Shown here: one piece after another, positions 25,487-42,300 of the stretch | Position numbering within the stretch: the stretch's first letter is position 1 | Layout: each line of letters begins with the position of its first letter | From: Prorocentrum cordatum | Taxonomy: Eukaryota > Sar > Dinophyceae > Prorocentrales > Prorocentraceae | Reading direction: 5' to 3' | DNA: 64,000 nt | NCBI GenBank assembly: GCA_963575745.1 | Contig: CAUYUJ010016294.1 | Coordinates: 492,157-556,156, forward strand | Translations under genes and position numbers: made by a program | Notes under the pieces: model-generated | What the model saw: the letters and a program-made list of their open reading frames with translations, nothing else | Told to the model about the DNA's origin: nothing | Databases searched by the model: none

Positions 25487-25662
25487 TGTGGGGGACGATC
25501 AATGGAGAGGAAGCATGTGGCCAAATAATTTCCAGATGTCTGAAACATGTGTTAAACATATTTTAAACATGTAAAGAGCATGTTTAAAACATGTTTAGAG
25601 CATTTTCCGACATTTCACACATTTTAAATTCAATGATAGGGCTGTTTGGGTGTCCATTGTCG
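25487..25662. repeat. ACATGTTT repeat copy 3, left part, interrupted by the retrotransposon
   Basis: Close match to 4860-5040 up to 'gtgtccattgtcg'. The continuation 'tgtcgtggcatccacaagg' is found only after the right LTR, at 42034-42052. The duplicated TGTCG (25658-25662 and 42034-42038; 6 bp if a flanking T is counted) is the target-site duplication, and the empty site is preserved in copy 1. Confidence 0.9.
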
Positions 25663-25689
25663 ACTTTAAACGGAGAAGGTTAAAGGCGA

Positions 25690-25697
25690 TATATAAA
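25690..25697 (+). promoter_or_regulatory. TATA-like element in the 5' LTR
   Basis: TATATAAA lies 27 nt from the LTR start, followed by GC-rich sequence. In the 3' LTR the single mismatch changes it to GATATAAA. Dinoflagellate genes usually lack TATA boxes, so its use as a promoter is an inference. Confidence 0.4.
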
Positions 25698-25723
25698 TCG
25701 AGCATGTACCGCTGCCGTGCCTG

Positions 25724-25736
25724 GCTCAAGCCGGGC
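25724..25736 (+). promoter_or_regulatory. Spliced-leader-like motif in the LTR
   Basis: CCTGGCTCAAG contains TGGCTCAAG, the last nine bases of the dinoflagellate spliced leader, and the preceding CCGCTGCC loosely resembles the leader start. Present in both LTRs. It could be a relict of trans-splicing captured at reverse transcription, or chance. Confidence 0.35.
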
Positions 25737-25813
25737 CCGGCCAGATATATGACTGTGCCTCACTGAGGCGCACGACTTGCATCAGAGATCGGAAAATACC
25801 TTTTCCATTGACG

Positions 25814-28800
25814 ATGCCCATCCTATCCTTTACTCCAGATCCCATGCTTCGTCTTGCACTCTTGCTCATGCGATATGAGCCAAAGCCTGGGATATGGCAA
25901 CGCTTAAAGCGTAACACATACCTAAGCTTACCAGCTTGTTTTCGACTTGGTAGCGGAGCTGGCTACACTCTCGTGTGGCTGGCTCTCGCTCTGATTCCTG
26001 TAATCCACGGCACAACTTGGTGGACTACTACTACGGTGGAATACCATGTTGCGCCGGCTCTGCGAGGAGCGGAGCCAGTCCGCGATCGAGCTAGCGGGGC
26101 AACCCGCGAACTCGAGACGCTCTCTCCTACTTCACTGCGCTACTTCACTCCCGACTTCCACCAGATGCCAATCGGCAACTCGATCGAGAACGTGGTCACC
26201 CTGCGGGGCTACCCGCAGCGGGGCCACCTGCATCCCGTGCCAGTCAGGCGCCTCACGGCTACTACGCCAGAGCCTGACAAACCACAGCCTAAACCAATCA
26301 CCGAAGCCGAAATGCACATGCATTGGATCAAGATAACTATATTCGGCATTCTGTGGGTAATAATGGGATGTGCTGTGGGATACATGCGGCAGGGGATGGA
26401 CGACACGCGTACTACTGGCCCTTCATGGGACCCTGCCGGTACTACGCCTTTTCGCGAATACGTTCGCGAAGTACATGCATGGTTAAACGTAACGAGTGGC
26501 AATATGACACCACCACAACAAGCTGCAGCACTACAACGAGGCCTTCAAGGTCTGGCTCGTCGTATCGCCATGCAGGTCCCCTCCCAGATCATCAATTATG
26601 GTGTAACTGTCAATGGACAGCCAACGGATGCAGTAACATATATACTGTACTTACTGAGCACCAAATTTGAAAATCTGGAAGATGAGCGCCAGCTCAACTC
26701 TGGCACTGCCCTTATCGACTTCCGCGTCGAAAGGGGCGAGCGAATCGACTCAGTATTAGCTCGATTCGAGATGGCCCGTGACGAGGCTAACTCTGTTGGC
26801 TTTGTCATCCCCAACTTTCAGATCCTAACGCTGATTCTCTTCAGAGCGTTAGGCGTTGGCGCGTCACGAGCCCAACACCTGCTTGAGCCCTTCAATCATC
26901 AGATGCCCCGAACACAAGCAGACTATGACAGGCTGCTGACCAGGATGAGGAACTACGGACATGTTGCCGAGCGCTCTCCTGGCAACATAGCGGGTATCTT
27001 CACAGGGCACCACTCACATGCAGGTGTCTACGCCACGACTGCGGGGTCACCCGCTGGTCCTGGCGAGCCAAATCCCTGGGCTGACCCAGCCGATATGCCC
27101 AACGAGGCCACTGCCCTTTTAGGGCAGACCGGCCAGGCATCGGCAGAGGCAGCTGAGGCGAACGCCTGGTCGAACTACTCGCCAGGCGCCGCCTACACTG
27201 CAAGCCCGCCCTCGGGCACAACCCTCTGGGGCCAAGCGGAGTCATCCGCTCAAGGGTCTCAGCCACCCTCACCGTTTGAATCTGGCACTGACACGGATAC
27301 CTCATCTGACGATGAGCACAATGGCATAGTCTCTGCTGGTAATGACTACCCAGCGGATGACACTCACCTCTCTGAACAACAAAGAGCGGAAGCCGCCTTT
27401 ATGGCTTATCGCAAATCAAAACGCCGTTGGAGGCGCTTTATGAAGAAACCAGTCAGAAAGGTGAGACGTGCAGTACGCCGACATTTCAAACGATTTGGAA
27501 AGGGTCGTGGCAAAGGGGGTCGCAGACGCCGTATGCATGGTAGGGGTATTACTGCTTTCCTCACGTCCTTAACTGATATGGCTTTTGAAGAAGTTCTTAT
27601 CGGAGGCAAAGGTCGGGGTCACAGGCGGACCTCCGGTAAGGGAAAAGGGCGGAGGGGCAACCCTAGGGACGCTTCTGGCAATACTATGAAGTGTCATACA
27701 TGCGGTAGCACAGAGCATTTGCGCGATCAATGCCCGAAGGGGAAAGGAAAGGGATCCGTACATTTGGCTCAAAATTCTTTTATGGATGACATAGATTACA
27801 TTGACTACGAGTTTTACGTCAATCCAGAAGCGGCTCCCGCCGCGGGCTCCTCCACGTATTACGTGATGGCCCGCTACGCTGAAGCAACTGTAGCCCTGGA
27901 AGACTACGCAGTGACCCTCTTCGACGAGTTCCACGGCTGGGACGAGGTCGACGAGGTCGCGTACAATGCTTGGTTCGGTCTTCCAGCGGGGCCACCCGCC
28001 GGCGACGAGGTCTCCGAAGCCGAGACCGTCCCGGCAACAGAGGAAGAACTCACCGCCGTGCTGGCCCCGCAAGTGATTGGCATGCCGTTGCTGCCAAATC
28101 CTTCGTGGGCTGGTTCGGAGGCGGGAGACGCCGATGACGAAATGCGGGGCCATCCCGCGTATTCCGACTCCGAAGAAGCCGAAGAAGATTATAAGGACAT
28201 GCTCCAAGAGCAGGTCTCAGAAGCAATCCGACTCCTGAGTGCGCCAGCACATCAGCAGATAACCATGAACGAACTGCTGTCACACCCAGGAGCTGCACGT
28301 CTACGTCCATACTTGGATTCGGACATGTCAGCATCTCAGATGCTGACAGCACTCCAAGCTCTAGCGGGGTCACCCGCCGAAGAGACGCCAGACGCAACAG
28401 CGGGGCCACCCGCTTGGTCTATGGATGTATTCATGCAAGGTTGTGATCAAATGGACATTAACGACCTCACGATGGAGCAGTTAAACGACATCGGGTACTT
28501 CAGAAGCCCGTATCAAAACGTGTTCATGGTCCAGGACAGCTCAGAGGACTCGGAGGACATGCGCTACGCCAAGAGGGACAGACGACCGTCGCCTCCCCGA
28601 GACTCAGAGCATGACGATCAAAGGCCAATGGCACGCGGTAGTGCGTCAGCGGGGCCAGCCCGCAGAAGGAGCCGTTCAGCTCCCAGACGCCCTACACATG
28701 ATGAATCGGGCTATCCATACAGTACTGAGCACTCCGTCGGAGTATCCGCTCAGCATGTGCCGGATTGGTACATCAAATGGTACCCCGGCTACTCGATGGA

Positions 28801-31800
28801 CACGCTTCGCCACTGGTATTCTAAGGAGTACTGCACTAAAAGGGACGAAACTGGCGCGATAATACGTACCAAGGGTGGCAAGACCAAGACGCCAGAGGCT
28901 TGGGACAAAAGGGCTAAGAAACAGGAGATCATCAACGATCGCAAGACATACAGGAAACAAGTATGTCAGTGCGAGCCCTTCAAAGGTCACATGCGCAGGT
29001 GTCCGATGGACCGCCCCTCCAGGAGCCCTCATCACGGTGAGACCCCGTGGAATTGGTCTCATGGAGATGACGCTGGCAACGTCCATGATCCTAATAAGGA
29101 GGTCCCTGGAGGAGGAAAGCGCATCACCGAAGCCGATCGTGTCCCTATGACCGAAGAGGTGGCCAACGTCGTCAGGGAAAATTGGGTACAGCTTCCCAAT
29201 GACCATCGCCTCAAGGAATGGAACCGCCGATTCCATGAAGAGGCGGGGTCACCCGCAGGATCCAGTAAAGAAGCGGGGTCACCCGCAGGATCCAGCAAAG
29301 AAGCGGGGTCACCCGCAGACGAGGCGCCAGCCGCTGGGTCCGCGGACGACGATTGGATAGCTGTTGCATCTGCTGCTGGGTCCGCCGCCGGCACTGACCA
29401 CACCGAACTGAATGAAGAATGGGCGGCGGAAGACGGCTCAGAGAATCCATTCCCTGATGGATGCGCCTGCTGGTACTACAGCTCTTCGGCGCAGAAGTGG
29501 TTTTGCACGAGGGTAATCTACCGCCATGAGAATGGCAAGTACAAGCTGGCCATAAAAGGTACTGCCGACATCGACCAGATGAGGCAGGTCATCCATGATC
29601 ATGGCCAGCCAGAAGGCCCTCCTAGAGACCCTCCTGGTCCACAACCGGGCAAGGGCAGCAGACCACCTCCAAGACCTAAAGCCGACTCCTCGTCTTCACC
29701 GACTCCTGCGAAAAGGCACCCGTCCAAGAGCCCCGAAGGCACACATGGGCGGGCGAAGGCCAGAGGGATCGCCAAGACGGACGACCCTGAGCCGGCAGAT
29801 CCTCCCGGTCTGTCCGTGACAGAGAGGAAGAAGGCTTTTGCTGGACCATCGACCCCGATGCCACCGGCGACCCAAGGCGATGTCAAGGACGAAGTTCGCG
29901 ACAAGCCTCAGGCAGCTTTCCGAGGTGACTGGACTCCAACTCTGCATCAGCCGCGCCTTGCACCACGACCAGGTTCGGCACGAATGAAAGCGCAGCCGAA
30001 GCCCGAAGCTGGGATGAGGTCGGTGCGGGCAGAAGCGGCCGCCAAGGCTAAGGAGGACAAGGGCTCTGCGGGGCCACCCGCTAAAGCGGCGCCAGCCGTA
30101 GCAGCGGGGACACCCGCAGAAGGCACTCTCTCAAGGGAAGAACGCTTCAGAGTCCTCAAAGAATTTGGCGACCAACAGAAACTAACCGATGATGCAGCTG
30201 CTGACGAAGGTCACCCGAACCCTGGCGCGGAGTCATCCGCAGGAGCTGCCTCGCCAGCCGCAGGCTCTGCTGGGCCACCCGTTAAAGCGCCGCCAGCGGC
30301 ATTAGCGGGGCCACCCGCACACGGGCAACCAGTAATGTCTGTTCTTAGGAACATCCCTCTGGGAGCCATCGAATACTGGCAAGGCATTGAAGGCAAAGGC
30401 CCGAAGCGCACCATAAACCCACGAGTCACTCCAGACGATACTGACCGATACGAGGTCATTAATTGTCCTGATCGTCGTAACTTCGAGTGCCGCAACGACT
30501 GGGAACGTGAACGACAAACCGTGGGAAATATGTTGCGAGACAGGCCGCCACTACGCGTTGCGCAGCATAAAGCAGAGCTCCTGAAGGTCATGGAGAGGTT
30601 CGGCATGGATCCGACTTTGCCGCGTGAAGGGCAGATGACCAAGGTGTCAATATGGTTTTCTACAGCCCTACGCCACAGTCCATATTGGAAGGACGGATTC
30701 AGCCGACACTTCGAAAAGATCAGCACTTTCGATCCATACGATGGCTGGGTTGTTGTTGACGATCTGCTGACAAACTGGACTGAAAATGATCAGTGGAAAG
30801 GCGATCGTGAAATGCACGAGGTGCTGATCAAGGGCAGGCCCCACACGTCATACGTGTATTGGGTGCTGCTAAACTGCTGTGAGATGATTGACCATCACGG
30901 CATGCAGAAGGGCAGGCTCCAGATGAAGTGCGTTGAGGACAGCATGCTGCTGCCTCCCAGGTTTCGACCAAAGGCACGCAGGCCACAGTACTTCATCAGA
31001 GCCACGAACGGCCACAGCAGTCCAGGCATCCACTGTCCCGAGTCGCTGTACAAGCCGATCACAACATGGATGAAAGAACCAGACGACCCAGTATATTTCA
31101 TCCACGGGACACAGTGGGAGTATGTCAAGGACATTCTTGCTAATGGCCTTTCATGCCTCGCACAGGACAACCCTAAAAGGAAGGGGGGGCGCCAATTTGT
31201 GCACGGCTGCCCCTACCTCCCGGGCGACCCGAGGATTCAATCGGGCATCCGTCCTGACTCGGAGGTGCTCATATTCTGCAGCATCAACAAGATGCTGTCC
31301 AGTGGCTTCTCCCTATGGAGATCAGCAAATGACATAGTCATGACACGAGGCCACGACGGACGTATACCGCCCGATCATATCCTCCAGATTGTGAGCATTG
31401 CGAAATATCGGGTCGGCGAAGCCTGGAGCAATCCGCTGGCTTATGACAAGTCGCGGAGGCGGGGCCAACCCGCGGACAGGATTCGCACCGATGACTACCT
31501 GCCACTTAAAATGTGTGACAGAACTCTGGGTGTAATGGAAGATCACGCCATGTACCTAAAGGGCTGGACTAAGACGGACGGTCGTCCATTCAATTTGGTC
31601 ATGACCGAGCAAGATGTTGCTCCACGACCGTACGACACACAGACAGTCCTCATGATGAATGCCCAGGAGGACGAGGTCATGCCTGAAGCGGGGCCACCCG
31701 CAGGTGCGGGGACACCCGCGGTAGACACCTCGGACGGTTCATGGCAACAAGTGGTCACACCAGTAGCAACGGTAGCATCTCCTTGGAGGCCGGACCAGCA

Positions 31801-34800
31801 GTCATGGGTCCAGGCCCTCAACAGCCATTTGACATCAGCCGACGTCTCTGGACTAACCGATCAGCTATACCGTGCTGACCCGTGGGCGGTGCATACAGGT
31901 ATCCAAGACGCACAGCAGAGGAACCTGCGCCCTCCTGCGGGGCCACCAGGCGTCCTAGGACCACAACCACAACGCCCTCCGCAGCAAGCTGGAGGTGCGA
32001 GGTTTGTCCCTATGGGCGGTTCAGATGGTGGCTCGCCGTTTCGGACTCCGCCGTCTGAAACGAGCGAGAACAGCTTGTGGCAAAGACTCCAGGCGATTCG
32101 CGGGAATCCGGCGCTCGCAGCAGCACTCCAGGCAACCACTCCCTTTGGCACTCCGAGGGGTAGTGAAGGAGGAGTGGCTGCGGGGACACCCGCCGAGCGA
32201 ACGCCTGCGGAGTCACTCGCACATGCGGGGCCACCCGCTGACGGACAGCAAGGTTCAGACTACGAACGTCGGGCAGCCAACTTGAGAGCACAGGCTACCT
32301 TTCTGCAGCAACAAGCTGATAGAGTGCCCAGCCTGTTGCGGAACCGCAACATAGATGTTACGAATCATGGCGACTTTCGGCCTCTCTGGAGCTGGACTTC
32401 TGAAGATGCTCCAAATGCTGATCCCACGAATCCATATCGACAGGTGTTTATTCCAGGAATAGCATCACACCCAATATATGGATGGGACAATCATGGACCA
32501 GCAGAGGCACAGGCCATGGACGCGCCGATGTACCCGGAGTACTACGCGCAGATGAATAACACTCCTATGATTGCGGGGCCACCTGCGAACGAATACACTC
32601 GGAATCTTGCCAATGAGATGTTTCGTTTGCAGTTTACACGAGCGGTCGATGCGCAGTCTATGCCGCACTACGCCTACATGCCCACGCCGACGGACCCCGA
32701 GACCGTAGTTCAGCCAGCTGGTCTCGCGGTGCCAGCCGCTATGGGCAGCATGCCAGACTACATCCGCGACGTGCACAACACGCAGCAAGCGATACTGGCA
32801 TCTAGGCAGCAGGCTCGGGACAACGCCAGGCTGCGCCAACAACGCGCGATCCAGAGAAGGATCGAGCGTGAGACCCAAGCGGGGACACCCGCAGACGCGG
32901 GGCCACCCGCTGAACGGACAGATAGACGGCCGCCACCGACGCCATATCGGGAGGGCGAAACCACTTTCGAGCGCCAAGCTCGGACTCGCCCAGACGTGCC
33001 TGCTCCAGTCATTTCAGACTACAACTTCACACAGTGCCCAATCTGTATGGACACCTACGAGATGGGCACCACAGTGTGGAGACTGGCGTGTGGGCACTTC
33101 TTCCACGATATATGCTGGGATCGTGTTGCACAGCAGCACGTCCGCAATCAGCGGCCAGGCGCGCCGAACGAGGCCCCCTGCGCTGTATGTCGTGGGCCGG
33201 GCATAATTACAGCACGTTTCCCGTATGCTGGACAGCGCGACGCTGAGTCGGAACAAGCGCGCCAGCAGGAAAGGTACGTGGCAGATGCCCGGGAAATGCG
33301 TCGGCTCCGGGAAGCAGTGGAGGCACTAGAGGCTCGAGCCGCACACTCGGCGGAGCCATCCGCACGTGCCCCAGCTGCACAGGCATCCCCCTGGCCAGCG
33401 CCAGAGCAAGGCATCCAGATGCCAATCCTGCCTACGCTTCGAGCACAGGAGCCCCCAGCAGCGGGGCCACCCGCCGAAGCGGCTCCCGCCGCCAAAGCGG
33501 GGCCACCCGCAAATGGACCTCCGAATCCAGGATTCCTGAGGGCAATGGAGGCCAACATCAGGCGGAGTGGCAGGAGCGGAGGCGGTACGCGCAGGCCGAC
33601 TGGATCATCCAGGACCTCACGTGTGGCAAGCCCGGTCAGCGCTAGGAGCCGGGCAAGCGCTGAGAGCGCGGAGGCAGCCCAGTTCCACACCACATTCATG
33701 ATCGATACAAAAGGGCTGACCTATGCACGTGACGACACGGACACGCTGCCGCCAGGAGGTGAATGGATGTCCACACTCTCTGCGAATTATTGGGTTCTTG
33801 AACAGGAACCAATTACCGTAGAGGAGCGCCGCCAATATGAGCAGATGTGGTGCACCGAGTTAACCATGAGCCAATGGGTGCTTGAACAACGCCTGTTGAA
33901 AGGCACACTCGGTTCACAGATTACGTACCACACCGATGACCATGGTACGATGGCTCTGGCAGCGCGGAATGGGACATTCTTTCCCGACGAAGACGGACTG
34001 CCGTGCATCTCGTTCATGCTAGACATTGGCTCCAACGTGAACATCATTGGAGCCAATACGGCGCGAACCTTCCAGGAGGCTATGGCCAGGTACAATCATA
34101 GACCTGCCATATGCACCCTGAGCAAGACCCTCTACATTAACGGTGTCGGTGAGGGTGCTGCGATATGTCGGAAAATGGGCAACTTCAAGATCGGGGTGCA
34201 ATACGCCAATGAGGCAAGCCCCCGTATCGAGGAGTATGCCTCCAACATCGCAGAAGGCTCGGGTGCCAACCTCCCGGCCATCTGGGGCCTTGGTGCCATG
34301 GAAGCACGTGACACGATCATCGTGCTGAAGCCAGGCTACCAGAAGGTTATCTTCCCCAGCGGTGATTACACTCTGAAGCTGGGGAGGGGCGCCAAGGTCC
34401 TGAGGGCGAAGAAAACTCCCTCAGGACATCTAGCCATTCCCTGCGGTTTGTATGACGGGGCTAAAAGCCAGACGGTCACGAACACCTTCACAATCCGCAG
34501 CAGTCGAGATGGCTACACCGAGACGGAGAGCGAAGAGGACCCCGTCAATGCGGGGTCACCCGCCGGTGTAGGTGCGGGGCCACCCGCCGGAGTAAGTGCG
34601 GGGCCACCCGCCGAGACCACAGCGGGGCAACCCGCGACGGGACAGTCCATGACCGTCACGACTGATACGTACATTGTCGAGCCGTATCTCGACAAGCAGC
34701 TCCTGGAAGACACGACCCGTTTGATCGTGGACAGGACGCTGAACAGCTGGTGGGAGGGCCAACAGTGTCCCGAAGGGACCTGGCCACATATGAAGGATGC

Positions 34801-35044
34801 CCTGAAGTCCAAGATATTTTGGGCAGTCCAGGAGGCGGTGAATAAATGGGCGCCTGAGAACCAAGCGGGGCCACCCGCGACACCGCCACCACCACCAAGC
34901 TACACGGGCGGAGGTTCGTCGGACTCTGCGGGGCCAACCCGCGTGGAGATCGTGAGCGTAGCCGCACCAGCGACTCCTGCGGAGCCATCCGCTAACAGCA
35001 TGCCCCCGAGTCAGACGGCAACGTGGTCACACGACCGCCGCTGA
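25814..35044 (+). CDS. Retrotransposon ORF1: gag, CCHC knuckle, Tpt1/KptA-like domain, RING-H2, protease
   Basis: About 3076 residues from the ATG at 25814 (inside the LTR) to UGA at 35042. In order: hydrophobic segments at about residues 48-66 and 169-191; a gag-like helical region (about 215-400); a basic stretch (about 540-620); a zinc knuckle C-x2-C-x4-H-x4-C (627-640); acidic and proline/alanine-rich linkers; a Tpt1/KptA RNA 2'-phosphotransferase-like domain (about 1605-1870); a RING-H2 finger (about 2408-2461); and a retroviral-type aspartic protease motif LDIGSNVNIIG with its aspartate at about 2737. Linkers carry many Ala-Gly-Pro-Pro-Ala peptides encoded by the hairpin motif described separately. 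Gag and protease roles are standard for copia; those of the Tpt1-like and RING domains in the element are unknown. The first ATG is chosen because the frame is open from there. A later start after the hydrophobic region is possible. Confidence 0.9.
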   Translation: MPILSFTPDPMLRLALLLMRYEPKPGIWQRLKRNTYLSLPACFRLGSGAGYTLVWLALALIPVIHGTTWWTTTTVEYHVAPALRGAEPVRDRASGATRELETLSPTSLRYFTPDFHQMPIGNSIENVVTLRGYPQRGHLHPVPVRRLTATTPEPDKPQPKPITEAEMHMHWIKITIFGILWVIMGCAVGYMRQGMDDTRTTGPSWDPAGTTPFREYVREVHAWLNVTSGNMTPPQQAAALQRGLQGLARRIAMQVPSQIINYGVTVNGQPTDAVTYILYLLSTKFENLEDERQLNSGTALIDFRVERGERIDSVLARFEMARDEANSVGFVIPNFQILTLILFRALGVGASRAQHLLEPFNHQMPRTQADYDRLLTRMRNYGHVAERSPGNIAGIFTGHHSHAGVYATTAGSPAGPGEPNPWADPADMPNEATALLGQTGQASAEAAEANAWSNYSPGAAYTASPPSGTTLWGQAESSAQGSQPPSPFESGTDTDTSSDDEHNGIVSAGNDYPADDTHLSEQQRAEAAFMAYRKSKRRWRRFMKKPVRKVRRAVRRHFKRFGKGRGKGGRRRRMHGRGITAFLTSLTDMAFEEVLIGGKGRGHRRTSGKGKGRRGNPRDASGNTMKCHTCGSTEHLRDQCPKGKGKGSVHLAQNSFMDDIDYIDYEFYVNPEAAPAAGSSTYYVMARYAEATVALEDYAVTLFDEFHGWDEVDEVAYNAWFGLPAGPPAGDEVSEAETVPATEEELTAVLAPQVIGMPLLPNPSWAGSEAGDADDEMRGHPAYSDSEEAEEDYKDMLQEQVSEAIRLLSAPAHQQITMNELLSHPGAARLRPYLDSDMSASQMLTALQALAGSPAEETPDATAGPPAWSMDVFMQGCDQMDINDLTMEQLNDIGYFRSPYQNVFMVQDSSEDSEDMRYAKRDRRPSPPRDSEHDDQRPMARGSASAGPARRRSRSAPRRPTHDESGYPYSTEHSVGVSAQHVPDWYIKWYPGYSMDTLRHWYSKEYCTKRDETGAIIRTKGGKTKTPEAWDKRAKKQEIINDRKTYRKQVCQCEPFKGHMRRCPMDRPSRSPHHGETPWNWSHGDDAGNVHDPNKEVPGGGKRITEADRVPMTEEVANVVRENWVQLPNDHRLKEWNRRFHEEAGSPAGSSKEAGSPAGSSKEAGSPADEAPAAGSADDDWIAVASAAGSAAGTDHTELNEEWAAEDGSENPFPDGCACWYYSSSAQKWFCTRVIYRHENGKYKLAIKGTADIDQMRQVIHDHGQPEGPPRDPPGPQPGKGSRPPPRPKADSSSSPTPAKRHPSKSPEGTHGRAKARGIAKTDDPEPADPPGLSVTERKKAFAGPSTPMPPATQGDVKDEVRDKPQAAFRGDWTPTLHQPRLAPRPGSARMKAQPKPEAGMRSVRAEAAAKAKEDKGSAGPPAKAAPAVAAGTPAEGTLSREERFRVLKEFGDQQKLTDDAAADEGHPNPGAESSAGAASPAAGSAGPPVKAPPAALAGPPAHGQPVMSVLRNIPLGAIEYWQGIEGKGPKRTINPRVTPDDTDRYEVINCPDRRNFECRNDWERERQTVGNMLRDRPPLRVAQHKAELLKVMERFGMDPTLPREGQMTKVSIWFSTALRHSPYWKDGFSRHFEKISTFDPYDGWVVVDDLLTNWTENDQWKGDREMHEVLIKGRPHTSYVYWVLLNCCEMIDHHGMQKGRLQMKCVEDSMLLPPRFRPKARRPQYFIRATNGHSSPGIHCPESLYKPITTWMKEPDDPVYFIHGTQWEYVKDILANGLSCLAQDNPKRKGGRQFVHGCPYLPGDPRIQSGIRPDSEVLIFCSINKMLSSGFSLWRSANDIVMTRGHDGRIPPDHILQIVSIAKYRVGEAWSNPLAYDKSRRRGQPADRIRTDDYLPLKMCDRTLGVMEDHAMYLKGWTKTDGRPFNLVMTEQDVAPRPYDTQTVLMMNAQEDEVMPEAGPPAGAGTPAVDTSDGSWQQVVTPVATVASPWRPDQQSWVQALNSHLTSADVSGLTDQLYRADPWAVHTGIQDAQQRNLRPPAGPPGVLGPQPQRPPQQAGGARFVPMGGSDGGSPFRTPPSETSENSLWQRLQAIRGNPALAAALQATTPFGTPRGSEGGVAAGTPAERTPAESLAHAGPPADGQQGSDYERRAANLRAQATFLQQQADRVPSLLRNRNIDVTNHGDFRPLWSWTSEDAPNADPTNPYRQVFIPGIASHPIYGWDNHGPAEAQAMDAPMYPEYYAQMNNTPMIAGPPANEYTRNLANEMFRLQFTRAVDAQSMPHYAYMPTPTDPETVVQPAGLAVPAAMGSMPDYIRDVHNTQQAILASRQQARDNARLRQQRAIQRRIERETQAGTPADAGPPAERTDRRPPPTPYREGETTFERQARTRPDVPAPVISDYNFTQCPICMDTYEMGTTVWRLACGHFFHDICWDRVAQQHVRNQRPGAPNEAPCAVCRGPGIITARFPYAGQRDAESEQARQQERYVADAREMRRLREAVEALEARAAHSAEPSARAPAAQASPWPAPEQGIQMPILPTLRAQEPPAAGPPAEAAPAAKAGPPANGPPNPGFLRAMEANIRRSGRSGGGTRRPTGSSRTSRVASPVSARSRASAESAEAAQFHTTFMIDTKGLTYARDDTDTLPPGGEWMSTLSANYWVLEQEPITVEERRQYEQMWCTELTMSQWVLEQRLLKGTLGSQITYHTDDHGTMALAARNGTFFPDEDGLPCISFMLDIGSNVNIIGANTARTFQEAMARYNHRPAICTLSKTLYINGVGEGAAICRKMGNFKIGVQYANEASPRIEEYASNIAEGSGANLPAIWGLGAMEARDTIIVLKPGYQKVIFPSGDYTLKLGRGAKVLRAKKTPSGHLAIPCGLYDGAKSQTVTNTFTIRSSRDGYTETESEEDPVNAGSPAGVGAGPPAGVSAGPPAETTAGQPATGQSMTVTTDTYIVEPYLDKQLLEDTTRLIVDRTLNSWWEGQQCPEGTWPHMKDALKSKIFWAVQEAVNKWAPENQAGPPATPPPPPSYTGGGSSDSAGPTRVEIVSVAAPATPAEPSANSMPPSQTATWSHDRR
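25948..25959 (+). other. Primer-binding site (initiator tRNA-Met type)
   Basis: TGGTAGCGGAGC directly follows the 5' LTR. It complements the 3' end of a tRNA ending GCTCCGCTACCA, which differs by one stem position from the animal initiator tRNA-Met 3' end (complement TGGTAGCAGAGC). Copia elements generally prime from initiator tRNA-Met. It is translated as part of ORF1. Confidence 0.75.
27692..27733 (+). other. CCHC zinc knuckle (nucleocapsid-type)
   Basis: Encodes CHTCGSTEHLRDQC, a canonical C-x2-C-x4-H-x4-C gag knuckle that binds the element RNA during packaging. It is preceded by a Lys/Arg/Gly-rich stretch typical of nucleocapsid regions. Confidence 0.95.
30625..31420 (+). other. Tpt1/KptA-like RNA 2'-phosphotransferase domain inside ORF1
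   Basis: The family motifs appear in order with usual spacing: ALRHSP (Arg1620-His1621), DGWVVVDDLL, FIRATNGHS (Arg1729), FIHGT then DILANGLS (His1764), and RQFVHG (Arg1793). In Tpt1/KptA the Arg-His pair plus two further arginines form the catalytic tetrad, and all four are present. The family removes the 2'-phosphate left by fungal/plant-type tRNA ligation, transferring it to NAD+ with ADP-ribose 1''-2''-cyclic phosphate as product; some members ADP-ribosylate nucleic-acid ends. Its length (about 265 residues) is slightly above the 180-230 usual for the family because of insertions. Domain identity is from motif reading only; activity is inferred. Confidence 0.8.
33035..33196 (+). other. 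RING-H2 finger inside ORF1
   Basis: CPICMDTYEMG, then LACGHFFHDICW, then CAVC gives C-x2-C-x14-C-x-H-x2-H-x2-C-x21-C-x2-C, the C3H2C3 RING-H2 pattern of E3 ubiquitin ligases. It is followed by a short, possibly coiled Arg/Glu/Ala-rich segment. RING domains are not a standard part of copia polyproteins. Confidence 0.85.
34010..34080 (+). other. Aspartic protease active-site motif
   Basis: FMLDIGSNVNIIGANTA has the D-[TS]-G-like triad in the form D-I-G, flanked by hydrophobic strands as in retropepsins, with a second conserved glycine region near LPAIWGLGAM about 85 residues later. Ile in place of Thr/Ser is unusual but occurs in retroelement proteases. Confidence 0.75.
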
Positions 35045-35076
35045 CGGGGGCAGGCGGGCGCGCCGGCGGCGCTCGC
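35042..35076 (+). promoter_or_regulatory. Candidate stop-codon readthrough signal (UGA-CGG plus stem-loop)
   Basis: UGA (35042-35044) is followed by CGG, the type II readthrough context known from plant viruses. After a 9-nt spacer, GCGGGCGC (35054-35061) can pair with GCGCTCGC (35069-35076), giving eight pairs with one G-U around a 7-nt loop. The frame stays open on both sides: 67 sense codons from 35045 to the first ATG of ORF2, most with a protein-like sequence. This supports a gag-pol product made by readthrough. The alternative is a simple nonsense mutation in a once-continuous ORF. Confidence 0.7.
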
Positions 35077-38000
35077 TTGCGAAGAGAAGCCGAATACCGG
35101 CCTCCTCGCGACATACGTTGGCCGCGCTGAGGCCCGAGAAGAAAAATATCATTCAAAATGTCTCGTCATCGAAGATATTCGCACAGCTTGCGCTGAACTC
35201 CGAACCCGTGGATATATATGCGACCGGATTACCCATAATGAGGTAATGACTTCAACTGGAACACAGTATTTGGGAAATTTGTTGGCAGGAGACTACAATA
35301 TGTTGTGGGTGGCCACACCCTCTGATTGGTACGTTCGTACTCCAGGAAAGAGGGCGGGACCACATTATCAACGTATACAAAATCTCCTGATCAAAGCGCG
35401 TGCTCTGAGAATGCAGATAGTTATCCTGGGGCCACCCGGGTATTTCTGGAAACAGGGTCCGATCAAAGATGTTATCGAAGATTTGAAGCTAAGCATTATA
35501 CGAATCAGACTCTGTCATTTCGGTATCAAGTTTGACCGATCCAGTAAATATCCCAGTGGTTCTTATATACAAGTTGCTACATCTTGTCCTCATATACCGA
35601 TAAACTTATGGAAATGTACTTGTGGATCACACAAGGAGCATGATTTGGATTGGTATGGCCAAGATCAGCAACGTGCCGAGTTTCGGTATAAAACTTTGGC
35701 TATTATTATTGCACGCTTCCTTGATCAACTCGATAAAGCCAACATGATCAGGAATGAGCGGAGTGCGGTACACCTCAGTGTGTGTACACGCGTTGACAAA
35801 AAGGTCAGACACTACGTCCAATGTCCACAAAAGGGCCCTCAATGGGACCATGTGGTTCGTAGGGTCACGACCGACCTGGACACGAACAAGATCGTTCAAG
35901 ATATCAGAATCCAGGATCAGCCAACTGGGTACAATTATGTAGCTCCATTACCTGATGGGGTTACAAACATCAGTACTCGGCTATACTGGGAGCCTCCGGC
36001 TCCAGTTCTTCATGGCAATGGTGAGTCGCGAAGGCCACGCCCAAAGCGTGTGACGATCGTCGACGACGATCGATCTCCTCCCCCTTCGATTGAGCGTTGC
36101 CAAACGCGACCCACCAACAACCTTCCTGAAATTCCGCCATTTCCTGACTTAACAGCGGATTCCTCCGCAGCGGATCTCTCCGCGGAAACTGCGTTGCCCA
36201 CTGATGCCAGGATAAAACAGAAAGAAAAGCAGAAAGCTGACAAAGAAGCCGGCATCAAACCGAAGAAAGTCCCGAAGAAAGTGGAAGACGGTAACGACGA
36301 CTGTGGAGAGGACCTCAAAGGGCTTGACTGCTCCACATATTTCAACGACGTTCCTCTTGACGACTCGGACTCGGACAGCGAATCAGAGGACATCTTCATG
36401 ATGTTACCGGCGGGGCAACCCGCTGACTCACATGCTGATGTCTTCTCGATGGTCCAGTCATTATGCTACGGCAGAAACAATCAAGTGGACATGCTTGAAT
36501 TATGTGGGGGCAAGGGTGGTATATCCATATTAGCCTTCAAGAGGGGACTCTCGTCAGGCGGGAACCTTGACAAGATATCTATGGTTGACCTTGGAAACTC
36601 GGAAGTACAAAGAGCAGTCCTCCACTACCTCAAGACTTGCTTTGTCAAGATCACGATTCTGCAGCCAAGCTGCAGAACTACTGGACTTCCCTCCTATTTC
36701 AACGCACAGGTCAATCATGATACGTGGCTTAAACACCACAAAGAGGACCTGCCTCACATCACGTTCTGTGGAACAGTCGCTCTATTACAAGACGACCTAA
36801 GACGTTTCTTTCTCAGGGAACAACCAATGGGCACGTGGGTGGATGAGATCCAGCCATGGAAGGAACTGGCACAACGCAAGGTCACTTGCCAAACGATTAT
36901 TGATCAGTGCACGACTGGTCTCAAAGATTCATTTGGACAATACATCCGCAAGCCAACACAGATGATGGCAAACAAAGAAGAGTTGTTGGCACCTTTCAGA
37001 GGCAAGCGTTGTCCAGGTAATCATGTGCACGCCAATGCTTGTAATAAAGAACTAGCAAGGGCGGCACAGTATACCTACAGAATGCAGTCACTGATCGTTG
37101 ATGCGGTGCAAATCGCCAAAGACCTGTTTGCTTACGGTCGCGATCCATTCGCGAATCGTGAACGCAGCTATGCGTTCGTAACAAACAGTGCTGGCTACGA
37201 CTTGGACGACCCAACAATCCGGAGACACCCAAACGGAGAAATCTGGCGACCACCACCTGGCGGTCTTGGGTGCCCTGGCTGTGTGGACAACAACTACAAG
37301 CAATCACCAAAGCACAGCAGGGATCCGAAGATGTGTCGGTGGTATGATGTTGAACCGTATTACTGGGACTGTCCAAGCTGTAAGAAGGAATATCAGAAGA
37401 GCAATCCTCACCACACCAAGATATCTGGCCAATGCAGATTCGCCGAAAAATGGAAGCTGCCAGATAACTTTGGCCAGCCGCGCCCGGCGGGGCAAGCCGC
37501 TCCTGCGGCGCCAGCCGCGGAAGCGGCTCCAGCCGCAGAAGCGGCGCCAGCCGCAAAAGCGGCGCCGGCCGCGAGAGCGCGCATACGCGCGCCTAGGCCG
37601 CCACGGCCTGGTGAGGGCGATCCAACCGCAGGCGCCAGCAGCCATGACATCACCAGAGCCGACGGGGCTAATGGTGGCAACAGTGGCGCTGGCAGCTCTG
37701 ACGATCACCGTAGACTGCCACAAGTTGCAGCAAGGCGCGGACGCATGGAGGGAGGAGATCCTCCACCACCGCCGCAGCCTCAAGCAGAGCCGAGGCCAAG
37801 GCCAAGGCTCCCTGATTGGACTCGCTTCGACGTTCAGCTCAGCCTCCAAAACCTGCGCAGCTTCGACCCAGCTGTAGTGCAGCGAGAACTCCGCAAACTC
37901 CACCTGAGATGGTTTCATGCCAAGGAGCCAAAAATGCGGATGATTCTAACCAAGGTTGGTCTGGGTGAAACCCGTTTGAGTCTGATCAAAGGCATTTGTG

Positions 38001-41000
38001 ACTCGTGTAGAGAATGTCGAGCCTGGGACAAACCAGGCAACACGGTGATGCCTTCTGTGTCACTGCCAGGACGTTTCAACGAGGAAGTCGAATGTGATCT
38101 TTTCTTTTACAAACAGGAACATATTGTTTTTCACATCATCGACCGTTGTATTCGCTGGGCAGCTGGCACAGAGATTCCTGATAAAGCCATGCATACTGTT
38201 CTCGATGCCTATCATACGACTTGGATGCAACATGGCCCTGCTAAAATCTTATACTCCGATGGGGAAGGAGCACTGAATAATGATACAGCAAAGGCCATCC
38301 TTAAGGCTAAGGGAACAGAGCTTCGTATTCGAGCGCGTGGCCAACACGCTACAACTATCGAAGCTAGGAACGGCATCCTGCGACACCTCTTACACGTGAT
38401 GGGAGAAGAATTGAATAGATTAAATATTCCTCTCAATTTCACTCGTCTCTTACATGAAGCCTTGTTTGCCAGCAACGCATTTACCTTCTACAATGAAGTG
38501 TCTCCGTACAATGCGCTGTATGGCAGACAACCAGCTATGCTTCCCGATTTCCCTGTCTTGGATCATGATCAGTCCGCTGAATCATCAGATCACTCAAGGG
38601 AGGAAACAATCAGGAGGGTTAGTCTGGAGGCAATCACGCAGGCCACTGCGGTTGCCAAGACGAACAGGGCTCTCCGTACGAAGACTACTGCTACGGGTGA
38701 ATTTCACTACAAAGAGGGAGATCTCGTGGACTATCATCGCCCGACCACCACGAAAGACGACTGGGGTGGATGGAGTGGTCCATACCCGGTCATCCGCAAC
38801 GAACCTGACCGAGGCCAGGTCATCGTGAAGGTCGGCAGTCGCGAAGTGCGAGTACAGTATCCTGACACACGACACACACTGTACATCGAAGCACTTATGG
38901 TCCGCGAGATAGGATCGGACAATACGGCCCTTCGGACAGTATTGGCCTTTATTGCCGGTCTGCCAGCGGGGAAACCCGCCATGACTTTCGGATATCTACC
39001 AGCGAAACAGGGTCGGCTGCAGATGACTGCTGCGAGCCGACTTTCGCCTAAGGTGCACTTGGCTCTTCAGTACCTCATACGCAACTACTTTCGTATTGAA
39101 AACGTTGTTGCTGTACGACTTGCCAAGAGCCTGACGAAGTTGCCTGCTGCACCCTATGCAGACAGCTGTACACTAGTGCACTATGATAATGATGTGACCC
39201 CTGGTTTTCATTACTATGAAGCTGATGGCACTGCCTTGAACATCTATGACATCACAGGATCTACACACTCACGCATCATCCAGTGTCTTAAATCCAGGAA
39301 GCCGTCTGCTGGATTTGACCAAGACCTCACTAAGTTTGAGGAACTCGCTGATGGTCCACCACCAAGCGAATCACCTCCAGCAGCTGCTCCTGAGGAGCCT
39401 CCTACGGATAACGATGGTCGGCTCCCGACCATCATAGAGGAAACAGAAGAAGATCTGGATGCTTTTGTCTTGAAGTCGTGGTATGCTGAACTGATGGATG
39501 ACAGAACACTCCTTGAAGCTGACACAGAGGAAGTCATGCATACAGTTCCCACATACATGACAGACACACAGTGTGTGTTAGTCTCTACGACCTGTGAAGA
39601 TGTGCAAGGCCACTTGCCGGAGCGGGGTCACCCGCCAGGATACGACATGGACACTTCTTACTACGTTCCTTTATGCTCCACGGATCCGGATAGCAAATAT
39701 GATCTGGACTCCGATGAGCACGGGAAGTACATCGAGCTCTGCTTCACAGCAGACATGTCCAAAGTCGTCCTGTCCGAGCAGCAACACCGATTGTTGGATG
39801 ACAGCAGCGTCACAACTATGCGAGTATACGTTAGCGCTGCCTCCAAACGTGCCGTGGTCGTCAAGGAAGACGATCTACTCACGAAGGCCGACATCCAAGC
39901 AAATCCGGTCAAAGTTTCCAAAGCCCTCTACACAGAATTGAAGACTTGGCTTGACAACAAATGCTTCCAGATGACTGACTTAAGCAAGGCGTCTAACATC
40001 ATGACGTCACGCTACGTATACAAATGGAAGTTTGTCAAGAACGAAAAGGGCGAAATGGAAAGGACGATCAGGTTACGCTTGGTACTCCGTGGCTTCATGG
40101 ACCTTGAAGCCTTTGATGTCGAAACCTTCTCTGGCACGGCAAGGAGGTCAAGCCAGAGACTGCTCGCAAGTTCTGCTGCATGCAACAAAGCTTGGATCAT
40201 CGCTTCCCTGGACATCAACATGGCTTTCTTGAAGGGACTGACCTATGGCGAGCTCGCCGCGGCAACGGGCGAGAAAGAGCGTGTGGTGTGCTTCACACTA
40301 CCACCTGGGTCAGCAGCTGTCCTTCGCACACTGCCAGGCTTTGAGTCATATGACGAATCAAAGCATTGTCTCCGGTGTCTGAAACCGGGGACGGGCACGA
40401 AGGATGCTCCCAGGGCATTCTCGCTGAAGCTCAGGTCCATCACTAGGAGCTTTGGGCTACAGCCTACTTCATACGACGAAGAGTTCGAGATGAGCCCAAA
40501 CCTCTTGACAGCCAAGCACGTTGATGACATCAATATGACTGGGAAGGAAGAGGCTATTGACAAGTATGTCAAGTGTGTTGAAGATACGTTTGGGAAGTGC
40601 AAACTGAACAAGCACACATACACAAACTGTGCCGTTCGGTACAACAAGACCGATGATGGGAGCGTCACTCTCGATCAGGACGAATACATCAAACAGCTTC
40701 GTCCTATCACACATCCAGAACTCACAGGAGCTGATCCTGAGAGCAAAGCGACAAAGACGATTTCTGATATGTTCGTCAGTCTTCGTGGCGCTCTAGCCTA
40801 TGCGTTGATCACGCAGGTATGGCTGATGGTCTATGTTGTCTCACTACAACGTATCCAGGAACCGACAAACATCCAGGTACGACGACTAAACGCGGTTACC
40901 AGAAAGCTACAGGCAGGTCCGAAGAAGATCGTGTATCAAGCTATGACCCCAACAGGAGAAGTCGACCTGCATAGCGATTCTGGCTATCGTCGTCTCAACG

Positions 41001-41644
41001 GAGATGAAGACGACGAAGTCAAAGGCTATGGTATCCGCGGGGCTAACCTGCTGAGGCGTGGCCACACGCAAGCGGGGAAACCCGTCGTGCACCTGGTGGA
41101 CGCATACTGCAAGTCTCATCGACTGCAGGTGCGTTCGAGCTACTCTGCGGAAACACTGGCAGCAGCCCACAACTTGGAAGACTGCTACCCGACCATTGTA
41201 ACGCTCCACGAGCTACACTCGGGACCATTGACCCCCACACAGTTAAAGAACATATTGGAAATGGGTGGTCTATGTATCAAAGTCACTCTGACTATTGATG
41301 CCGAGTCTGTCTTCAAGTCTTTGTCTAGCAAAGATCTGAAGAAGCCCACAGAATGTACTCTGCTTGGGCACATCAGCTGGATCCGCCAGATGATGGAACG
41401 CGGAATCGTGGAAAGCGTCCAATGGTGTGACACGCGGGATATGACTGCCGATGGTCATACCAAAGGTAGTATTGACCGCGCGTTGCTCCTACAAGTAATG
41501 GCCGGCCAGCAATCCTTCAAGCACGAGCTGAAGAAACATACGCCGTATAGGGCGGGCAGGTCGTCTCAGGACGGCCCTGCCTCCCGAGCCAGCGGGGAAA
41601 CCCGCGGGCAGGTGCGCTTTAGTAGCGAGGAAACTCGCCGGTAG
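35045..41644 (+). CDS. Retrotransposon ORF2: methyltransferase-like modules, integrase, reverse transcriptase, RNase H
   Basis: Same frame as ORF1. Open from 35045; first ATG at 35246 (2132 residues from there, used for numbering). Residues about 1-170: a methyltransferase-like module with GPPGYFW and a C-x-C-x4-H tail. About 413-640: a related module beginning ELCGGKGG (SAM-binding motif I-like). About 740-790: Ala-rich hairpin-encoded linker. Integrase: His/Cys zinc region about 885-925, catalytic D951, D1005, E1039. Ty1/copia reverse transcriptase about 1550-1800 with D1656 and HVDD (D1760-D1761, where YVDD is usual). RNase H about 1905-2110 with D1911, the acidic residues of SAETLAA and TIDAES, and a final TADGHTKGS. 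Everything needed for copia transposition is present and uninterrupted. The coding-like sequence upstream of the ATG argues that translation enters by readthrough. Confidence 0.9.
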   Translation, partial: RGQAGAPAALACEEKPNTGLLATYVGRAEAREEKYHSKCLVIEDIRTACAELRTRGYICDRITHNEVMTSTGTQYLGNLLAGDYNMLWVATPSDWYVRTPGKRAGPHYQRIQNLLIKARALRMQIVILGPPGYFWKQGPIKDVIEDLKLSIIRIRLCHFGIKFDRSSKYPSGSYIQVATSCPHIPINLWKCTCGSHKEHDLDWYGQDQQRAEFRYKTLAIIIARFLDQLDKANMIRNERSAVHLSVCTRVDKKVRHYVQCPQKGPQWDHVVRRVTTDLDTNKIVQDIRIQDQPTGYNYVAPLPDGVTNISTRLYWEPPAPVLHGNGESRRPRPKRVTIVDDDRSPPPSIERCQTRPTNNLPEIPPFPDLTADSSAADLSAETALPTDARIKQKEKQKADKEAGIKPKKVPKKVEDGNDDCGEDLKGLDCSTYFNDVPLDDSDSDSESEDIFMMLPAGQPADSHADVFSMVQSLCYGRNNQVDMLELCGGKGGISILAFKRGLSSGGNLDKISMVDLGNSEVQRAVLHYLKTCFVKITILQPSCRTTGLPSYFNAQVNHDTWLKHHKEDLPHITFCGTVALLQDDLRRFFLREQPMGTWVDEIQPWKELAQRKVTCQTIIDQCTTGLKDSFGQYIRKPTQMMANKEELLAPFRGKRCPGNHVHANACNKELARAAQYTYRMQSLIVDAVQIAKDLFAYGRDPFANRERSYAFVTNSAGYDLDDPTIRRHPNGEIWRPPPGGLGCPGCVDNNYKQSPKHSRDPKMCRWYDVEPYYWDCPSCKKEYQKSNPHHTKISGQCRFAEKWKLPDNFGQPRPAGQAAPAAPAAEAAPAAEAAPAAKAAPAARARIRAPRPPRPGEGDPTAGASSHDITRADGANGGNSGAGSSDDHRRLPQVAARRGRMEGGDPPPPPQPQAEPRPRPRLPDWTRFDVQLSLQNLRSFDPAVVQRELRKLHLRWFHAKEPKMRMILTKVGLGETRLSLIKGICDSCRECRAWDKPGNTVMPSVSLPGRFNEEVECDLFFYKQEHIVFHIIDRCIRWAAGTEIPDKAMHTVLDAYHTTWMQHGPAKILYSDGEGALNNDTAKAILKAKGTELRIRARGQHATTIEARNGILRHLLHVMGEELNRLNIPLNFTRLLHEALFASNAFTFYNEVSPYNALYGRQPAMLPDFPVLDHDQSAESSDHSREETIRRVSLEAITQATAVAKTNRALRTKTTATGEFHYKEGDLVDYHRPTTTKDDWGGWSGPYPVIRNEPDRGQVIVKVGSREVRVQYPDTRHTLYIEALMVREIGSDNTALRTVLAFIAGLPAGKPAMTFGYLPAKQGRLQMTAASRLSPKVHLALQYLIRNYFRIENVVAVRLAKSLTKLPAAPYADSCTLVHYDNDVTPGFHYYEADGTALNIYDITGSTHSRIIQCLKSRKPSAGFDQDLTKFEELADGPPPSESPPAAAPEEPPTDNDGRLPTIIEETEEDLDAFVLKSWYAELMDDRTLLEADTEEVMHTVPTYMTDTQCVLVSTTCEDVQGHLPERGHPPGYDMDTSYYVPLCSTDPDSKYDLDSDEHGKYIELCFTADMSKVVLSEQQHRLLDDSSVTTMRVYVSAASKRAVVVKEDDLLTKADIQANPVKVSKALYTELKTWLDNKCFQMTDLSKASNIMTSRYVYKWKFVKNEKGEMERTIRLRLVLRGFMDLEAFDVETFSGTARRSSQRLLASSAACNKAWIIASLDINMAFLKGLTYGELAAATGEKERVVCFTLPPGSAAVLRTLPGFESYDESKHCLRCLKPGTGTKDAPRAFSLKLRSITRSFGLQPTSYDEEFEMSPNLLTAKHVDDINMTGKEEAIDKYVKCVEDTFGKCKLNKHTYTNCAVRYNKTDDGSVTLDQDEYIKQLRPITHPELTGADPESKATKTISDMFVSLRGALAYALITQVWLMVYVVSLQRIQEPTNIQVRRLNAVTRKLQAGPKKIVYQAMTPTGEVDLHSDSGYRRLNGDEDDEVKGYGIRGANLLRRGHTQAGKPVVHLVDAYCKSHRLQVRSSYSAETLAAAHNLEDCYPTIVTLHELHSGPLTPTQLKNILEMGGLCIKVTLTIDAESVFKSLSSKDLKKPTECTLLGHISWIRQMMERGIVESVQWCDTRDMTADGHTKGSIDRALLLQVMAGQQSFKHELKKHTPYRAGRSSQDGPASRASGETRGQVRFSSEETRR

Positions 41645-41657
41645 CGAGGCTACTCGC
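36155..41657 (+). repeat. Mini-hairpin family in ORF2 and 3' UTR (about 16 copies)
   Basis: GCGGG/CCCGC copies start at 36410 (loop GCAA), 38966 and 41592 (GAAA), and 39622 (GTCA). Compensated stems: GCGGA/TCCGC at 36155 and 36170; GCGGC/GCCGC at 37505, 37523, 37541, 37559; GCGTG/CACGC at 41056; GCGAG/CTCGC at 41625 (GAAA) and 41644 (GCTA). G-U variants at 41037 and 41072; imperfect at 37487. The copy at 41644-41657 begins at the last base of the stop codon and so is non-coding. Confidence 0.85.
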
Positions 41658-41748
41658 GCGCCCTTTCCTTGTAGGCAGCCGCTGCTGCTTAGCACTGTTT
41701 TTCCGCATAATGTAGAAGTGCGGTACCTGCTCGTCTCCCCCCCCTCCG
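41645..41748 (+). other. 3' untranslated region before the 3' LTR
   Basis: Contains the last mini-hairpin and ends in 'ctcgtctcccccccctccg' immediately before the LTR. Where a purine-rich polypurine tract is expected for plus-strand priming, this strand is pyrimidine-rich. Confidence 0.6.
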
Positions 41749-42033
41749 ACTTTAAACGGAGAAGGTTAAAGGCGAGATATAAATCGAGCATGTACCGCTG
41801 CCGTGCCTGGCTCAAGCCGGGCCCGGCCAGATATATGACTGTGCCTCACTGAGGCGCACGACTTGCATCAGAGATCGGAAAATACCTTTTCCATTGACGA
41901 TGCCCATCCTATCCTTTACTCCAGATCCCATGCTTCGTCTTGCACTCTTGCTCATGCGATATGAGCCAAAGCCTGGGATATGGCAACGCTTAAAGCGTAA
42001 CACATACCTAAGCTTACCAGCTTGTTTTCGACT
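41749..42033 (+). repeat. 3' LTR, 285 bp
   Basis: One difference from the 5' LTR. Contains the same ATG frame, which here runs into flanking DNA for 172 residues without significance. Followed by the TGTCG target duplication and the rest of the interrupted host repeat. Confidence 0.95.
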
Positions 42034-42300
42034 TGTCGTGGCATCCACAAGGTTATTCTGGGGGTGGACTTTTCGATTTCTAATCATGACAGAGCGACAG
42101 CGAATTACAATTACTCATGTCGCGGTCGTCGCGGCCTTTGGTGGGCCAAGGCGCATGCAGGCTCCCGGGCCCGCGCGGCCCAGAGCGGCATGGATCCCGG
42201 CGGGGGTGCGGGCCACGGGGGAGCACGACGACGACGAGGCCGACGATCCCGATGGCGACACCGACGAAGAAGGCGATGCTGAGTATGCTCATATGGCTCG
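42034..42300. other. Right flank: remainder of the interrupted repeat plus unassigned DNA
   Basis: Target duplication, then 'tggcatccacaagg' as in copy 1, then GC-rich sequence with no identified gene. Confidence 0.7.

Follow-up and report, generated by a model that had tools for sequence, protein, structure and literature searches.

The 64,000-nucleotide (nt) stretch of Prorocentrum cordatum DNA analysed in this study (contig CAUYUJ010016294.1, hereafter the window) contains a whole Ty1/copia-like long terminal repeat (LTR) retrotransposon of 16.4 kb on the plus strand (25657..42038), which carries a dispersed set of short hairpins. The 5' LTR (25661..25949, +) and the 3' LTR (41747..42035, +), whose ends are uncertain by a few nt, are 99.65% identical over 289 nt in a pairwise comparison (1 mismatch), and a candidate target-site duplication, TTGTCG, was read by eye at both ends of the element. 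ORF1 (open reading frame 1; 25697..35044, +; 3115 amino acids (aa) from stop to stop) has a CCHC knuckle region, which scores below the Pfam cutoff, a KptA/Tpt1-like domain and a RING finger. ORF2 (35045..41644, +; 2199 aa) follows in the same frame after a TGA and contains the reverse transcriptase region, identified in Pfam as RVT_2 (PF07727, E 2.2e-11, 44.3 bits against a cutoff of 31.6). In this domain, the LTRs and the candidate target-site duplication, the element agrees with Ty1/copia LTR retrotransposons. Pfam gave no match to an integrase upstream of the reverse transcriptase in 37805-39304, where there are conserved residues that we take to be HHCC-like, and a DIGSN motif at a place in ORF1 without a Pfam match is presumably protease-like. 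In the source genome (4.13 Gb), to which all genome-wide searches refer, at least 131 places encode a 300-aa reverse transcriptase segment 100% identical to that of the window (131 scored of 10763 candidates), and public P. cordatum protein fragments are up to 98–99% identical to ORF1. The element family is recent and abundant in this genome.

Between 26069 and 41657 there are 53 perfect 5-base-pair (bp) stems of the type GCG..CGC with loops of 4–5 nt (47 + 6), and hairpins with a GNNA loop and any stem number 38 in ORF1 and 17 in ORF2, 55 in total, in good agreement with the approximately 57 copies of the original prediction. The loop has G at position 1 and A at position 4 in 45 of the 53, which form 30 clusters when hairpins within 50 nt of each other are joined. 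Covariation on both arms of the stem, which had also been predicted, is evident from the 39 of 43 GCGNN-GNNA-NNCGC sites that are Watson-Crick at both free pairs. The codon-preserving shuffle proposed as a check leaves almost no such hairpins, with 34 GCG/GNNA hairpins observed in ORF1 compared to 0.23 after synonymous-codon shuffling (max 3, n = 300), and 10 in ORF2 compared to 0.18 (max 2, n = 300). Sense and antisense GNNA hairpins in the element number 47 and 10, and the stem is exactly 5 bp in 42 of the 47; seven unrelated loci, 70 kb together, have 15 and 11 on their two strands. The claim that the hairpin is absent from the rest of the window holds for GCG/GNNA hairpins of this kind, the only members found there on either strand being two GCGCC-GGGA-GGCGC on the plus strand, which are of another kind. 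It does not hold for GNNA hairpins with any stem, the density of which in the flanks is that of the background (left, 5 on the plus and 10 on the minus strand; right, 1 and 1). Chance in GC-rich DNA as the source of the hairpins is ruled out by the shuffles and the antisense controls. Rfam gave 0 matches at the gathering threshold in 25600-42100.

Frame 0 holds 34 of the 45 hairpins, frame 1 holds 3 and frame 2 holds 8, one of which, at 41644, starts on the final base of the ORF2 stop codon and was counted as ORF2 frame 2. The frame 0 hairpins encode AGPPA and its variants, which raises the possibility that a peptide serving as a spacer or cleavage site is selected, and that codon use gives rise to the palindrome incidentally. 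The predominance of frame 0 is in keeping with this, as is the enrichment of AGxPA both in ORF1 and in a relative, P0030, an ORF1 protein 40% identical to that of the window with 8 AGxPA compared to 0.1 expected. The hairpins in other frames, however, encode unrelated peptides, e.g., RGHP and SGETR, and the hairpins are destroyed by synonymous shuffles.

Constraint was examined with additional copies from the same genome, eight for the ORF1 region (pairwise identities 87–99%) and four for the ORF2 region. Between ORF1 copies, in pairs without the window and its nearest copy, which lessens the bias from choosing hairpins in the window, four-fold sites differ in 18/1409 comparisons in stems and 23/998 in loops, compared to 3498/27390 elsewhere; copy pairs share history and are not independent events, and the comparison sites share that same history. 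Against the window itself, 3/558 four-fold stem sites have changed compared to 1513/11849 elsewhere, and in ORF2, for pairs without the window, 0/126 differ in stems compared to 334/5216 elsewhere. The constraint between ORF1 copies is about tenfold, which argues against a peptide as the cause. At synonymous sites in the loop, the G has changed in 0/187 comparisons and the A in 5/227. For 27 frame 0 hairpins, the position before the stem (-1) differs in 18.6% of comparisons, stem positions in 0–2% and the first base past the stem in 11.2%, whilst loop positions 1 to 4 differ in 1.2%, 13.7%, 1.2% and 3.5%, with changes at position 2 altering the amino acid. The constraint in the nine copies is thus exactly 14 nt wide, with loop position 2 and both flanks free, and this position-by-position profile excludes peptide selection as its cause. 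Changed stems in the ORF1 GNNA hairpins of these eight copies amount to six hairpin-copy cases, three of them at hairpin 30227 (30227..30240, +; GCGGA GTCA TCCGC), which is broken in 3/8 other copies; this count skipped copies with a gap inside the hairpin, e.g., hairpin 34865 (34865..34878, +; GCGGG GCCA CCCGC), which has one base missing in L016 and one stem change in L009. Comparison of sister copies had been suggested as a further check, and it shows stems more conserved than the peptide requires and no decay of stems under kept AGPPA peptides.

The original prediction regarded the hairpins as confined to one retrotransposon, which is true of the window only, as a second family in the same genome has the same device with other stems. 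A genome search with a distant relative, P0002, found at least 38 places with 59–60% identity (38 scored of 18734 candidates), in many of which the open frame is 2167 aa long, and three copies taken from these 38 provided the hairpin data. One of the three is 61% identical to the window element in the ORF2 protein and 48% in the N-terminal part of ORF1, and has 41 sense GNNA hairpins compared to 2 antisense (40/2 and 40/5 in the other two copies). Its stems are of 15 kinds and exactly 5 bp in 39/41, and 35/41 of its loops are GNRA, mostly GAAA but also GCAA and GAGA. Synonymous shuffles again remove the excess (ORF2, 10 observed compared to 0.66; part of ORF1, 21 compared to 2.1), and across all pairs of the three copies four-fold stem sites differ in 0/110 comparisons in the ORF1 part (104/2851 elsewhere) and 0/57 in ORF2 (165/3016 elsewhere). 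This family mostly uses another reading frame and other peptides (xG[ND]x'P); in its most used frame the hairpin encodes x-G-[N/D]-x', with complementary codons for x and x'. A peptide motif as the cause is ruled out by the frames, the four-fold sites and this second family, and we consider the chance that peptide-level selection accounts for the hairpins to be negligible.

The pattern GC..GG..AC..GC, which leaves two inner pairs free, occurs at 76 sense sites in the two families, of which 71 have both inner pairs complementary. By family, both pairs are Watson-Crick in 34/36 sites in the window family and 37/40 in the second family, the latter with 11 inner types, and four of the five exceptions, as read from the printed sites, differ by a G-U pair only. 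The antisense strands have one such site and the window flanks one, both unpaired. In a codon alignment of ORF2 from the two families, four hairpins (4/17 of the window element, 4/10 of the second family) are at the same columns with different complementary stems. The hairpin at 37162..37175 (+; ACGCA GCTA TGCGT) corresponds to GCGCG GAAA CGCGC in the second family, and that at 39604..39617 (+; GCAAG GCCA CTTGC) to GCTCG GAGA CGAGC, each with two compensated pairs. At 38966..38979 (+; GCGGG GAAA CCCGC) the second family has GCAGG GAAA CCTGC, a compensation that is synonymous on both sides, with AGKPA encoded in each, and at 41056..41069 (+; GCGTG GCCA CACGC) it has a compensatory change to GCGAG GAAA CTCGC. 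In the gag-side part, where 8 and 8 hairpins were compared, one is shared (26683..26696, +; TGAGC GCCA GCTCA), with the stem kept and the loop changed to GACA. The remaining hairpins occur in one family only, so that hairpin positions turn over. The GCG definition is also too narrow: the hairpins at 39604, 37162 and 26683 belong to the set, since each has a counterpart in the second family at the same columns.

The excess over shuffles, the four-fold constraint, the second family and the compensatory changes together argue that a sense-strand RNA structure, and not a peptide motif, is under selection, and we are almost certain that the hairpins are a sense-strand feature that functions as a base-paired structure. 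About 50 copies of the module lie in the sense RNA, in each of which a stem, as a rule of exactly 5 bp (GC-NN-G with C-N'N'-GC), carries a G..A tetraloop, and the module is common to two or more families of this genome. The stem-loops share one motif, are more numerous than chance allows and are conserved beyond coding need, as would be looked for in dispersed packaging signals.

Genome-wide, the exact word GCGGGGCCACCCGC has 8343 occurrences, compared to 127 for the reversed control; those listed are the first of the 8343 and lie mostly in clusters within copies of the window element. Of eight isolated exact matches that were examined, L018 is a relative, whilst L017 and L019-L024 are outside this element; a distant copia relative is near one of these seven, L022. 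L017 and L023 share a similar sequence that contains GGCGGGGCCACCCGCC, perhaps another repeat. In L018, a decayed relative, ORF1 and the start of ORF2 have 13 sense GC-rich GNNR hairpins compared to 1.3 expected, and 3 antisense; a hairpin excess was not found in its remaining ORF2 part (L029), with 3 sense and 3 antisense. The word GCGGGGGCGCCCGC, which is frequent in L018, was dropped as largely background (2411 compared to 1968 for the control).

No DNA of relatives was found in the viral contigs or other genome contigs searched, and relatives outside this genome were compared as proteins only. Among 23 ORF2 relatives, [HLRPQ]G[ND]X has a partner with a complementary codon at 33/61 sites compared to 14.1 expected (standard deviation 3.2, maximum 26, 5000 shuffles), after removal of the columns common to more than 3 of these proteins, which reduced 145 sites to 61. 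Of the controls, G[AST] is also above its null (17/59 compared to 10.6, standard deviation 2.5, maximum 19), and the other three are below. Without this filter the result is 59/152 compared to 32.5, with the G[AST] control also over the null (58/169 compared to 36.2), a test that is confounded because of conserved columns. Relative P0018 repeats DPGNRI-like peptides, and P0013 repeats HG[ND]V. The peptide signature of the second family is thus also present in proteins of some other relatives.

Copies of the element differ by tandem units of 18–36 nt (18, 24, 30 or 36), each of which holds a hairpin. Such units are seen at hairpins 29243, 29273 and 29303 (29243..29316, +; 30-nt units) and 34550, 34574, 34598 and 34622 (34550..34635, +; 24-nt units), both variable in number between copies, and at 31688 and 31706 (31688..31719, +), where L012 has one more 18-nt unit. 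L009 and L013 have a common insertion at the equivalent of 34971, at least 33 nt of which match ~32177-32212, 2.8 kb away in the region of hairpins 32180 and 32225 (32180..32238, +), the apparent source. The insertion has hairpins at its joints and is a copy-paste event within the element or between copies, presumably by template switching or gene conversion. New hairpins arise when hairpin-plus-spacer units are duplicated in tandem and when one hairpin serves as template for another, and probably also through point changes. Separately, L016 has a long A-rich insertion directly 3' of a hairpin, near the equivalent of 34594.

Variable units and copied segments of this kind, together with the fast evolution of the bases just outside frame 0 hairpins, are what would be seen if the 14-nt hairpins were a selfish palindromic micro-element, copying itself within the retrotransposon by template switching or gene conversion between similar hairpins and tolerated in linkers without function. 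However, synonymous stem sites remain constrained despite the insertions and unit duplications, the strand bias is strong, and the many different stem sequences are not predicted by copying. The compensatory changes at orthologous sites largely refute it and, together with the stem variety, rule out that one copied and inserted micro-element accounts for everything. A selfish origin is therefore, in our judgement, a distinctly unlikely account. Rickettsia palindromic elements and similar coding palindromes also lie inside open reading frames, but are far longer than 14 nt and are regarded as selfish, whereas the hairpins here are 14 nt, strand-biased and constrained. In the mitochondrial coding palindromes of Nematomorpha, inverted repeats are likewise kept along with protein function, but these are up to 284 bp, and a shared tetraloop hairpin is not mentioned in the portion of that account used here (PMC6649704).

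The near-fixed stem length, the fixed outer and closing bases, the two fixed loop letters, the strand bias and the ~50 copies suggest a repeated protein-binding site. Our best guess, which we believe somewhat more than we doubt and which draws on analogy with known packaging systems, is that the hairpins may be used in recognition or packaging by a protein of the element. Of the roles proposed originally, binding by an element protein or packaging is the most compatible with the data, whilst a parasitic micro-element is disfavoured by constraint and orthologous compensation. As ORF1 has a CCHC region, its Gag/nucleocapsid part is the natural candidate; this part, with the CCHC knuckle and a basic stretch, would most likely bind hairpins along the whole RNA, which would tell genome RNA from host mRNA and condense the RNA into particles. 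Packaging would then be specific to each family, given their different loop preferences.

The dispersed packaging signals of RNA viruses are as a rule degenerate and difficult to establish from the sequence by itself. In single-stranded RNA viruses, multiple packaging signals with a shared recognition motif are dispersed through the genome RNA (PMC6281560). As repeated motifs of sequence and structure along one RNA, the hairpins have these signals as their nearest working parallel, but differ in belonging to an LTR retrotransposon and in numbering ~50 near-perfect copies with fixed 5-bp geometry and a G..A tetraloop. Ty1, the relative studied in most detail, is of the same class and has a Gag that binds and packages Ty1 RNA; its cis-acting signals, however, are described near the 5' end, and a dispersed repeated hairpin is not described in the part of the source considered. 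The way in which Ty1 Gag selects Ty1 RNA is said there to be unclear (PMC8396678).

Several points weigh against recognition by an element protein. According to the same source, at least in the sections concerned, Ty1 Gag binding sites show no preference for particular bases (PMC8396678). Which protein would be the partner is a guess. Hairpins so dense in a coding region might just as well act in translation, stability or RNA compaction, and the folded strand could be single-stranded cDNA. The 10 antisense GNNA hairpins of the window element exceed the count in the second family, canonical GNRA loops are found in only 8/47 of its hairpins (most are GNCA), most hairpins are absent from the shared columns of the two families, and seven ORF2 relatives (P0011, P0015, P0016, P0021, P0022, P0023 and P0024) are without a strictly complementary site. 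In local folding, just 25/45 hairpins have a pair probability >0.5 (mean 0.57), and hairpin 26069 has 0.02; the low local pairing is probably due in part to the interchangeable arms of neighbouring hairpins.

RNA compaction could be achieved without a specific protein if GNRA tetraloops docked with helices in the same RNA, folding the 16-kb genome for packaging. The dominance of GNRA loops in the second family (35/41) and the retention of the loop G and A at synonymous sites in the window family (0/187 and 5/227 changed) fit such docking, but GNCA, the prevailing loop type of the window family, is a poor canonical docking loop, and the explanation seems unlikely to us. The window hairpins are filed as GNNA and are GNRA-like only. 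Like GNRA tetraloop hairpins they have a G..A loop, and those of the second family are mostly canonical (GAAA, GCAA, GAGA); unlike them, the window family prefers GNCA, with ~50 repeats in one RNA.

A role in translation or stability, with ribosomes slowed between domains or the long mRNA shielded from decay or silencing, is in line with the location of the hairpins in coding RNA and mainly on the sense strand. A 5-bp stem is, however, a weak ribosome obstacle, and slowing alone leaves the demand for a G..A loop unexplained. In addition, hairpin 41644, which begins at the end of the ORF2 stop codon, is kept in 4/4 other copies compared, one with a loop change. We therefore hold such a role to be improbable, to about the same degree as docking.

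Extending recognition by an element protein further, a clade of giant dinoflagellate copia elements may encode an RNA barcode, comprising ~50 hairpins of 5 bp per genome RNA with a family-specific loop code (GNCA compared to GAAA), maintained within the polyprotein gene through compensatory evolution and read by a co-evolving element protein, a proposal that we find plausible but fall slightly short of expecting to be correct. If true, the barcode would serve self-recognition, packaging or RNA condensation. No dispersed hairpin code in retrotransposons was found in the literature searched, which was mainly open-access, and this would be the first known as far as that literature shows. As the signal is so repeated and clean, selection, strand, stem length, loop and compensation are measurable from genome data, and specificity can be tested directly on the at least 131 copies and the two or more families that differ in their loops. 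More generally, repeated peptides in predicted proteins, such as AGPPA and HGNVH, can be shadows of RNA structure.

The remaining individually mapped hairpins described next are all on the plus strand. In ORF1, the stem GCGGG/CCCGC with the loop GCCA is found at 27986..27999, 30305..30318, 33461..33474 and 33497..33510; with GCTA at 26203..26216; with GTCA at 27041..27054; and with 5-nt loops at 28144..28158 (GCCAT), 28649..28663 (GCCAG), 31459..31473 and 34928..34942 (both GCCAA). The same stem forms a pair of hairpins in 28364..28413, at 28364 (GTCA) and 28400 (GCCA). The stem GCGGA/TCCGC has the loop GTCA at 27236..27249 and GCCA at 33350..33363 and 34979..34992. Further pairs are at 26069 (GCGGA GCCAG TCCGC) and 26094 (GCGGG GCAA CCCGC) in 26069..26107, at 30068 and 30104 in 30068..30117, and at 32879 and 32897 in 32879..32910. 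In ORF2, single hairpins are at 36094..36107 (GCGTT GCCA AACGC), 36410..36423 (GCGGG GCAA CCCGC), 39622..39635 (GCGGG GTCA CCCGC) and 41592..41605 (GCGGG GAAA CCCGC), with a pair at 37505 and 37541 (GCGGC GCCA GCCGC) in 37505..37554. At 38335..38349 (GCGTG GCCAA CACGC) the window encodes Arg, where 13/14 relatives shown have Pro (APxQHA). The last pair, in 41625..41657, consists of 41625 (GCGAG GAAA CTCGC) and 41644 (GCGAG GCTA CTCGC).

Four palindromes (27830, 33479, 36155 and 36170) have TYYC loops on the sense strand and GNRA loops only on the minus strand. Those at 27830..27843 (-), which is less conserved across copies, and 33479..33492 (-) both read GCGGC GGGA GCCGC on the minus strand, and the two in 36155..36183 (-) have the loops GGAA and GAGA.

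Within ORF1, the KptA/Tpt1 domain (RNA 2'-phosphotransferase, PF01885, E 6.4e-17) is at 30740-31351 and the RING finger at 33032-33193, and for the relative P0030 both KptA and RING families are listed as well. Two public P. cordatum gene models, P0026 and P0028, join separate ORF1 pieces of the element in one protein. At the junction of ORF1 and ORF2 (35042-35110), TGA-CGG is followed directly by a strong predicted stem-loop, and TGACGG is present in 9/9 aligned copies. This combination looks like a stop-codon readthrough signal giving a polyprotein of >5000 aa.

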